From Dysgonomonadaceae bacterium zrk40 (GTDB lineage Bacteria; Bacteroidota; Bacteroidia; Bacteroidales; Dysgonomonadaceae): DNA of 64,000 bases. Position 1 is the first letter of the stretch, and each line of letters starts with the position of its first letter. The position numbers and the translations under genes were made by a program. The notes under the pieces were generated by a model, which saw only the letters and a program-made list of their open reading frames with translations, made no database searches and was not told the DNA's origin. The DNA is taken from contig CP070276.1 in assembly GCA_016916535.1 (NCBI GenBank), positions 2,356,001 to 2,420,000 on the forward strand, given 5' to 3'. Shown piece after piece: positions 31,388-52,640 of the stretch.

Positions 31388-32548
31388 ATGAAGAAACAGG
31401 GATTCATTGTTTTTATACTCCTGCTCGGGGTTCTCATGATCACCGGATGTACGCAAGGCGACCGGTTCACGGTGGAAGGAAATATCGTTGCTGCCGAAGG
31501 TGATACACTCTACCTGGAACAGCGGGCACTTGCCGGTGTGGAGCTGCTCGACTCGGTGGTACTTGACAAGGAGGGTGCGTTTCGTTTCCGGCAGCCGGCG
31601 CCGGACAATCCTGAGTTTTATCAACTCCGTCTGGGTGGCCTGATGGCAGCCTTCGCGGTGGACTCGTCTGAGACACTCCGTGTGACAGCTGACGGTTCGG
31701 ATCTCTATCGCTCTTTCAAGGTGATGGATTCGCCCACCAACGATCAGCTTCGGCAGGTGGATCGTTTGGTGATTGATGCTGCAGCCGCTCTCAAGCAACT
31801 GGAGGAGGAGCACAAGGCGGGATCGATCGACGACATGGCTTTCATCAGCCAGCTCGACTCCGCCCTGCTCAATTATAAGGGGGAGATTTCTAAACTGATC
31901 CTGGGCAATCCCACCGGTGCAGCCGCTTACTATGCCCTGTTCCAAAAGATCAACAACTTCCTGATTTTCGATCCTTACGACCGTCGCGATTACGCCATGT
32001 TCGGGGCGGTAGCCACCTCCTGGAATCGTTTTTACCCGGAGAGCGATCGTACCCGCCACCTCTACGAGTTCACCATGAACGCCCTGAAGGTGCGACGTCA
32101 ACAGGAGCAACAGGCTGAACTGCTTGAGAACGCAGTGCCGGAGACCGGTACGGGATTGCCCGACATCGTGCTCCCGGTGGTGAGTGGTGAGAAAGTGAGT
32201 CTCTCCTCCCTGCAAGGGAAGGTGGTGCTGCTCGATTTCACGGTGTATGGATCCGACTTCTCTCCCCGGCACAACATCGACTTGAATGCGCTCTACGAAC
32301 GTTACCGCGAGAGTGGGCTGGAGATCTACCAGATCTCGTTCGACTCGGATGAGCATTTCTGGAAAACAGCTGCCAGCAACCTGCCCTGGATCGCCGTGCG
32401 TGATCCCCAATCGGTGAACAGCCGCCTGCTCCCGCTCTACAACGTGAGAGAGCTGCCCACAGCCTTTATCATGAATCGGGACGGTGATCCGGTGGTGCGT
32501 ATCGAATCGTATGCCAGCCTTGAGGAGGAACTGAAAAAGTTGCTCTGA
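31388..32548 (+). CDS. TlpA/AhpC-TSA-fold lipoprotein lacking the CXXC redox site
   Basis: Envelope lipoprotein, 386 aa. The lipobox ITGC gives Cys21 after a hydrophobic signal. The N-terminal domain (about 28-110) looks like the DUF4369 domain that precedes many Bacteroidetes thiol-disulfide proteins (FTVEGNIVAAEGDTLYLEQ); a helical middle and a thioredoxin-like C-terminal domain (about 255-386, LPVVSGEKVSLSSLQGKVVLLDF) follow. Where TlpA/ResA have WCGPC this protein has TVYGSDFSP, with no cysteine, so it cannot do thiol-disulfide exchange at that site. The cis-Pro loop (ELPTAF) is kept. Probably a binding or scaffolding relative. It starts just after its promoter; greA follows from a separate one. 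Confidence 0.85.
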   Translation: MKKQGFIVFILLLGVLMITGCTQGDRFTVEGNIVAAEGDTLYLEQRALAGVELLDSVVLDKEGAFRFRQPAPDNPEFYQLRLGGLMAAFAVDSSETLRVTADGSDLYRSFKVMDSPTNDQLRQVDRLVIDAAAALKQLEEEHKAGSIDDMAFISQLDSALLNYKGEISKLILGNPTGAAAYYALFQKINNFLIFDPYDRRDYAMFGAVATSWNRFYPESDRTRHLYEFTMNALKVRRQQEQQAELLENAVPETGTGLPDIVLPVVSGEKVSLSSLQGKVVLLDFTVYGSDFSPRHNIDLNALYERYRESGLEIYQISFDSDEHFWKTAASNLPWIAVRDPQSVNSRLLPLYNVRELPTAFIMNRDGDPVVRIESYASLEEELKKLL

Positions 32549-32564
32549 AACTTTTTCCCCAATT

Positions 32565-32596
32565 TTTGTTTTTATGGAATAAAGTTTTTATCTTTG
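32565..32596 (+). promoter_or_regulatory. greA promoter, near-consensus
   Basis: TTTG at 32565-32568, 20-bp spacer, TATCTTTG at 32589-32596: the best match to the Bacteroidetes -33/-7 consensus in this window. It implies a greA leader of about 100 nt. Confidence 0.75.
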
Positions 32597-32609
32597 TGGT
32601 AATTACATC

Positions 32610-32675
32610 ATGGAAAAAGGGAGTTCCGGTCTTGTTGAAAAAGGCCGGAATTCTTTTTCTTTGTGTTGTTTATAA
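32610..32675 (+). CDS. possible 21-codon leader peptide in greA 5' UTR
   Basis: ATG at 32610, TAA at 32673-32675, 21 residues (begins MEKGSSGLVEKG, ends SLCCL). The frame spans the terminator-like hairpin at 32621-32663, so ribosomes on it could alter folding. No clear ribosome-binding site is visible, and composition gives no single repeated regulatory codon. It may be chance. Confidence 0.3.
   Translation: MEKGSSGLVEKGRNSFSLCCL
32621..32663 (+). promoter_or_regulatory. attenuator-like hairpin in greA leader
   Basis: GAGTTCCGG (32621-32629) pairs with CCGGAATTC (32645-32653), nine pairs with one G-U, followed by TTTTTCTTTG. It lies between the promoter and the greA start, in the transcribed leader. 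It has the form of an intrinsic terminator. E. coli greA also has a leader terminator that yields GraL RNA; functional equivalence here is inference. Confidence 0.6.
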
Positions 32676-32704
32676 CAAGTATCAAAACAAAGAAATTACA
32701 CGTT

Positions 32705-33175
32705 ATGGCAGTAACCTACATGACCGAAGATGGACTTCGGAAATTGAAAGAAGAACTGATAGAGCTGGAGTCAGTGCAACGGCCTGAGATCTCACGTCAG
32801 ATTGCAGAGGCACGTGACAAAGGTGATCTGTCGGAAAATGCGGAGTATGATGCCGCCAAGGAGGCACAGGGAATGCTGGAGGCCAAGATTGCACAGTTGA
32901 AAACGCTGATCGCAAGTGCCCGGCTCATTGATGAAAGCAGCATCGGCACCGATGAGGTGCAGATCATGAACAAGGTGACCATTCGCAACCTGCAAACAAA
33001 GAAGTCGATGACTTACACCCTTGTTTCGGAGAGCGAAGCGGACCTTAAAAGCGGTAAGATCGCGGTCAGCACCCCCATCGCACAGGGACTGATGGGCAAG
33101 AAGGTGGGTGACGTGGCCGAAATCAAGGTTCCTTCCGGAACAATGACATTTGAAATAGTGGAAATATCAATCTGA
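32705..33175 (+). CDS. greA: transcription elongation factor GreA
   Basis: Cleavage factor that rescues backtracked RNA polymerase, 156 aa from the chosen ATG (MAVTYMTEDGLRKLKEEL); upstream in-frame codons are not family-like. The N-terminal coiled coil carries the acidic tip in GDLSENAEYDAAKEAQ, holding the conserved D-x-x-E-N-x-E-Y; the C-terminal FKBP-like domain ends SEADLKSGKIAVSTPIAQGLMGKKVGDVAEIKVPSG. The HIT gene follows after 5 bp, so the two are co-transcribed. The leader contains a terminator-like hairpin. Confidence 0.97.
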   Translation: MAVTYMTEDGLRKLKEELIELESVQRPEISRQIAEARDKGDLSENAEYDAAKEAQGMLEAKIAQLKTLIASARLIDESSIGTDEVQIMNKVTIRNLQTKKSMTYTLVSESEADLKSGKIAVSTPIAQGLMGKKVGDVAEIKVPSGTMTFEIVEISI

Positions 33176-52503: not shown

Positions 52504-52607
52504 AAAAAGGGTAAGCGATCTATATCGCGCCGCTACAACCAAATACCCTTGCTTCGGTCAAGACCTGGGGGATTCAATGGGAGCTGGCCGTATAGGACTT
52601 ACCCTTG
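52504..52607 (-). ncRNA. ffs: signal recognition particle RNA (4.5S, small bacterial type), candidate
   Basis: About 104 nt on the minus strand. The ends AAGGGTAAG (52606-52598) and CTTACCCTT (52515-52507) form a perfect 9-bp terminal stem, followed by TTTTTT. The core reads CCCCAGGTC, a 10-nt apical hairpin, then GAAGCA, exactly the spacing of the E. coli domain IV CAGG ... AGCA symmetric loop; flanking AATCCCC/AGGGTATT continue the helix. The apical loop is UC-UUGACC-GA instead of the GGAA tetraloop. A near-consensus promoter (52640-52610) starts at the expected place. ffh lies 5 kb away. No protein frame covers it. Confidence 0.75.
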
Positions 52608-52609
52608 TG

Positions 52610-52640
52610 CAAAGATACATCTTTTTATTTAGATACAAAA
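52610..52640 (-). promoter_or_regulatory. promoter of SRP RNA gene
   Basis: Minus strand TTTTG (52640-52636), 18-bp spacer, TATCTTTG (52617-52610). Transcription would begin within a few bases of the terminal stem. Confidence 0.72.

Follow-up and report, generated by a model that had tools for sequence, protein, structure and literature searches.

The greA gene of Dysgonomonadaceae bacterium zrk40 is preceded by a terminator-like hairpin, which raises the question of what this structure does and what could control it. In this work, we examined the locus in a stretch of 64,000 nucleotides of contig CP070276.1 (hereafter the window), taken from a genome of 3.47 Mb, together with the upstream regions of greA in related bacteria. 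The comparisons of sequence described below led us to regard it as rather probable that the greA leader is a promoter-proximal intrinsic terminator that serves as an attenuator and is controlled by RNA polymerase and its factors. The features of the locus are as follows.

31388-32548, plus strand: gene for a thioredoxin-like protein, the 5' neighbor of greA
32565-32568, plus strand: TTTG, predicted -33 element of the greA promoter
32589-32596, plus strand: TATCTTTG, predicted -7 element of the greA promoter
32610-32675, plus strand: 21-codon frame MEKGSSGLVEKGRNSFSLCCL, with ATG at 32610 and a TAA ending at 32675; probably not functional as a peptide
32616-32658, plus strand: terminator-like hairpin with arms 32616-32633 and 32641-32658 and loop 32634-32640
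32621-32628 and 32646-32653, plus strand: conserved hairpin core, GAGTTCCG and CGGAATTC
32654-32663, plus strand: U tract TTTTTCTTTG, putative termination site, in conserved alignment columns
32705-33175, plus strand: greA, the gene proposed to be under control, matching TIGR01462 and both Pfam GreA domains

The greA Gene, Promoter, and Hairpin

The identity of greA follows from the TIGR01462 score (181.9 bits; cut-off 139). The gene is followed by a HIT-domain gene, and its product shares 91 and 93% identity with the closest named records, which are from a Bacteroidetes MAG (GWC2_46_850) and a Proteiniphilum, respectively. The residues D41 and E44, which we take to be the catalytic residues of GreA, are both present; their retention would only allow autoregulation by a catalytically active GreA.

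Promoters of Bacteroidetes have the consensus TTTG, about 20 nt, and TAnnTTTG. An earlier sequence-only reading of this DNA had described a near-consensus promoter (TTTG-N20-TATCTTTG), which is indeed found at 32565-32596, and the greA transcript would start near 32601-32604. This promoter was not reported by a 2-kb scan with sigma-70 rules and is of another type. In the 48 nt 5' of the hairpin, 136 of 148 distinct leaders contain a TAnn(n)TTTG box (shuffle expectation, about 6%).

Downstream of the promoter, the greA 5' leader contains a terminator-like hairpin followed by a U tract. The same reading had noted this hairpin with nine pairs; its presence was confirmed, and it is stronger than had been described, with 18 pairs and a 7-nt loop. 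The hairpin starts about 20 nt past the promoter. The final five stem bases on the 3' side are U, followed by CTTTGTGTTG. Three versions of the leader folded 5.1, 5.1, and 6.5 standard deviations below dinucleotide shuffles, and none of the 200 shuffles was as stable in any of the three. Among the 51 terminator-like hairpins on both strands of the window (-11 kcal/mol or lower, with at least 6 T in 8), the greA hairpin ranks first in stability. When 2 kb were scanned with a simple consensus, three terminator-like sites emerged against an expected 2.6, so the bare count of such sites does not exceed chance.

Conservation and Covariation of the Hairpin

We collected the greA upstream regions of 89 family loci, which came from 90 genomes with a GreA match (G082, with a partial match, was omitted), and of 80 wider loci, which are the top 80 among at least 590 relatives. 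Scanning for hairpins yielded candidates in 158 of 170 regions, a total in which the window's own region is counted twice. Of 84 script-trimmed cores, 53 well-formed hairpins were aligned by sequence (alignment A1), and the remaining 31 were left out, mostly shortened by trimming.

The sequence-only reading had staked its proposal on conservation of the stem among relatives, and the stem proved to be conserved and to covary. Pairing is kept in 91.5% of the cells of A1, and 11 of the 16 pairs have changed on both sides within these 53 sequences. None of 500 shuffles reached the observed value on four measures and one did so on a fifth, although kin sequences can beat shuffles without structure and the reference structure was taken from one of the 53. 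Versions of the structure slid along the alignment scored far lower. The top of the stem fits worse, with pairs 19-32 and 20-31 broken in 20 and 18 sequences, respectively, and the upper stem and loop are free to vary. At its foot, the 3' arm remains rich in U, and the 5' arm alternates between A and G. All 53 leaders have at least one G-U pair among five lower pairs. These G-U pairs may be a by-product of the need for a U-rich 3' arm and for a stem whose opposite-strand version is weak, or they may serve in recognition. Throughout A1, the stem is followed by a U tract.

A covariance model (R1) detected the element in 88 of the 89 family loci (E <= 0.01), many of which are in its own alignment; the single miss (L109) has a hairpin that is visible by the hairpin scan. 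The leader in the window scores 60.9 bits on the greA strand and 20.6 bits on the opposite strand. Among the 80 wider Bacteroidota loci, R1 matched 43 (E <= 0.02), always on the greA strand and within about 180 nt of greA. Of these, 15 are in the model alignment and four (L003-L006) are on contigs whose lengths match those of family genomes, which leaves 24 independent matches. The 37 wider loci with no match at this threshold include most of the Flavobacteria records and a group with a small gene 5' of greA. Among more distant genomes, 33 of 34 others from the class and 22 of 24 from other classes have a hairpin with a T tract within 180 nt. This count demanded no promoter, took the loci whatever their upstream gene, and dropped 11 of 69 loci with no usable protein match. 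Given the rate among control ORFs (see below), some of these distant hairpins will be ordinary terminators, and a few, such as those of L222, L226, and L233, do not resemble leaders. Farther out, the sequence seems to drift while the arrangement is retained.

Association of the Hairpin with greA

In the genome that holds the window, the next R1 site after the greA leader scores 25 bits, and a search for the pattern GAGTTCCG...CGGAATTCTTTT gave a single occurrence. Matches to R1 at E <= 0.05 are present in 94 of 101 family genomes. Second sites in the family reach up to 41 bits, and several of them lie on both strands at one place, as palindromic terminators would give.

For a comparison that does not depend on the motif, we scanned for hairpins at or below -8 kcal/mol that are accompanied by a T tract. 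Of 109 loci, 90 gave a greA row, and 88 of these had at least 60 nt of intergenic DNA. Such hairpins precede 83 of these 88 greA genes vs. 70 of 179 neighboring ORFs; when a promoter box within 45 nt 5' of the hairpin is also demanded, the counts are 70 of 88 vs. 6 of 179. The control ORFs were defined mechanically, such that false genes are among them, and one of the six control matches (L049) is the hairpin of the same locus's greA leader, the control ORF there probably being greA with another start. The conservation of this hairpin before greA in many relatives suggests that these bacteria may tune greA through premature termination of a share of its transcripts, as is reported for Escherichia coli.

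Position of the Hairpin in the Leader

In the genus, the distance from the promoter box to the loop center is nearly fixed (median 39.5 nt; standard deviation 1.0; 32 leaders with a box), whereas that from the loop to the greA ATG varies with a standard deviation of 15.3 nt and reaches 141 nt. The hairpin thus tracks the transcript start rather than the start codon. Across 136 leaders, the distance from the box to the hairpin core has a median of 22.5 nt and a minimum of 2 nt, so many leaders have hardly any RNA before the stem. Folding of the stretch from the putative start to the loop in the same leaders gave a median of -2.1 kcal/mol and, taken overall, no antiterminator as an alternative structure. 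A fold of -5 kcal/mol or lower can form there in 14 of the 136, so antiterminators may still exist in places.

Comparison with Known Leaders

The greA leader of E. coli contains an intrinsic terminator, the hairpin of which begins after 19 nt of RNA (PMC6829880). According to that study, GreA raises termination in its own leader and thereby lowers its own expression, and a catalytic GreA is required; this autoregulation was not recapitulated in vitro, and a further factor is suspected (PMC6829880). Like the terminator-like hairpin in the window, this terminator lies a few dozen nucleotides past the greA start, and GreA dependence and a short RNA (GraL) are reported for E. coli (PMC6829880), whereas the leader in the window is known from its sequence. 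The promoter types also differ, and no sequence relation or homology to GraL was found with R1: the best score in a 7-kb E. coli greA region is 11.9 bits, on the strand opposite greA. The description of the leader in the sequence-only reading, as an attenuator-like element resembling GraL and built independently of it, agrees with this result and with the conserved hairpin and U tract.

Attenuators before greA-family genes were predicted by genome comparison in Proteobacteria, bacilli, and Clostridia, and each greA- and rnk-leader in that account has a clear antiterminator (PMC2965389, main text). These leaders likewise place a 5' terminator before greA-family genes, but most of the Bacteroidota leaders have no room for an antiterminator; the main text of PMC2965389 contains no word starting with Bacteroid or Flavobacter. 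The nearest parallel in logic is the rimP-leader, a lone terminator with a conserved stem sequence before a transcription-factor operon (NusA). It has no visible antiterminator, and its authors argue for direct protein control (PMC2965389, main text). The rimP-leader differs in its gene and in its motif, which is GGGc...gCCC (PMC2965389) compared with about GAGUYCYG...CRGGAUUCUUUU here.

The available texts of studies on Flavobacterium psychrophilum (PMC9723704), the B. thetaiotaomicron atlas (PMC10994844), and RbpB (PMC11697453) do not mention greA, and the whole word greA does not occur in PMC7815308. In the literature searched, supplements aside, we found no Bacteroidota greA leader with a sequence of its own and mostly free of an antiterminator. 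The covariance models of Rfam 15 gave no match at the gathering score at the greA leader in the window and 28 loci; a known Rfam element was rejected on this basis, and the 15 matches listed are far below the gathering scores of their families. Attenuators in greA leaders are known in other phyla; the version described here has a sequence of its own and mostly lacks room for an antiterminator.

Proposed Mechanism and Alternative Explanations

In the model that we favor, RNA polymerase would initiate near 32601, and the hairpin would be made in the first 60 nt of the greA transcript. At the U tract, the polymerase would either free a short transcript of some 55-63 nt or continue into greA, and we infer that it stops at the hairpin with some efficiency, thereby setting greA expression. 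Which of the two occurs would depend on the polymerase, on its state and its bound factors, either GreA (as negative feedback) or factors of the NusA/NusG type, and most likely without a ribosome or ligand. The scant RNA before the hairpin in most relatives and the unconserved short frame (see below) point to the polymerase and its factors as the most likely agents. The leader is perhaps a terminator-only attenuator tied to its promoter and part of a GreA feedback like that of GraL; that the level of GreA itself sets read-through, as the analogy with E. coli would have it, is possible but falls somewhat short of probable.

The 21-codon frame over the hairpin noted in the sequence-only reading is real and ends 29 nt before the greA ATG (32705). 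Its translation could decide whether the hairpin forms, and such control is favored by the extent of the frame, which covers the hairpin in the window, and by an ATG kept at this position in 33 of 34 genus leaders. This ATG (32610-32612 in the window) sits 7-17 nt 5' of the conserved TTCCG-type core, and the frame that follows it is not kept. Relative to the stem, the genus ATGs fall into three phases (8, 4, and 21 leaders), their stops vary, four of the frames end within the hairpin, and six extend beyond the greA start. Outside the genus, an ATG is found in 12 of 54 leaders of the family's other genera and 20 of 69 of other Bacteroidota, although the hairpin is retained. Comparison of phase, stop, and ATG across the genus, family, and Bacteroidota thus revealed no conserved peptide, and control through translation of this frame, part of the sequence-only proposal, was rejected as very unlikely.

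The hairpin could also be merely the 3' terminator of the upstream gene, whose end lies 68 nt 5' of the hairpin in the same orientation, and it could block read-through from that gene as well. Yet the promoter sits between that gene and the hairpin. Divergent upstream neighbors are informative here because no other gene needs a terminator there; with such neighbors, the hairpin is present at 28 of 31 greA genes vs. 27 of 99 controls, and the hairpin with a box at 24 of 31 vs. 5 of 99. A promoter box lies between the hairpin and the ATG in just 6 of 148 leaders, close to the chance rate of about 8%, and a second promoter 3' of the hairpin was rejected for this reason. On the divergent neighbors and the promoter position, we rejected a role solely as upstream terminator, which we consider highly improbable. 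Protection of the greA mRNA by a 5' hairpin, or pausing of RNA polymerase without termination, would suit a stable hairpin near the 5' end with a variable upper stem and loop, but protection does not need the U tract that is kept throughout the alignment; we regard this explanation as unlikely. Quite unlikely, too, is that the leader serves mainly as the source of a trans-acting small RNA. Action in trans is described for GraL (PMC6829880), and an RNA of 55-63 nt would arise here; against this, no Rfam family matches, and the loop and the stretch before the hairpin differ between genera, such that there is no widely conserved seed.

Attenuation governed by the polymerase and its factors bears on a problem that is open even in E. 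coli, where self-control of GreA requires both the leader and a further factor that remains to be found (PMC6829880). A widespread leader that is mostly a hairpin at a fixed distance from its promoter, with no conserved peptide, would narrow the candidates to the polymerase and the factors present at the terminator, and the Bacteroidota leaders offer many natural variants for testing. For gut Bacteroides, which have transcript maps, the model leads one to expect a short RNA together with an early stop that is regulated. A broader idea, which we put forward as speculative and rather doubtful, is that premature termination upstream of greA works as a minimal feedback device across the phylum, in which promoter, hairpin, and U tract suffice for the polymerase to report its own need for GreA, and in which the conserved lower-stem sequence of Bacteroidales (GAGU/AUUC, with G-U wobble) is a recognition feature for the polymerase, GreA, or another elongation factor. 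If so, the same design would have arisen in several phyla from unrelated sequences.

Small Genes Upstream of greA and Other Observations

Six loci (L053, L054, L060, L064, L068, and L074) have a conserved small gene directly 5' of greA that encodes roughly 32-60 residues ending like RKAIIANEILNRKY. The copy in L060 has no Pfam match, and R1 found no leader on the greA strand at these six loci (E <= 1). In three of these loci, L054 (near 722), L060 (near 2823), and L068 (near 2842), the small gene is preceded by a hairpin that has the loop GGCTGTGAAGTT and is flanked by TAGGTT on its 5' side and a T tract on its 3' side. The same hairpin also occurs away from greA in L007 (near 2353), L011 (near 2342), and L027 (near 1596 and 1990). 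No Rfam match was found for those in L007, L054, L060, and L068.

In the window, the stop codon of the thioredoxin-like gene lies within an inverted repeat (32533-32556) that is weak, A/T-rich, and accompanied by a T run. It appears in the centroid fold only (z -1.6) and might be that gene's own terminator. An ordinary Bacteroidales small SRP RNA (RF04183; 120.3 bits) lies on the minus strand at 52505-52611.
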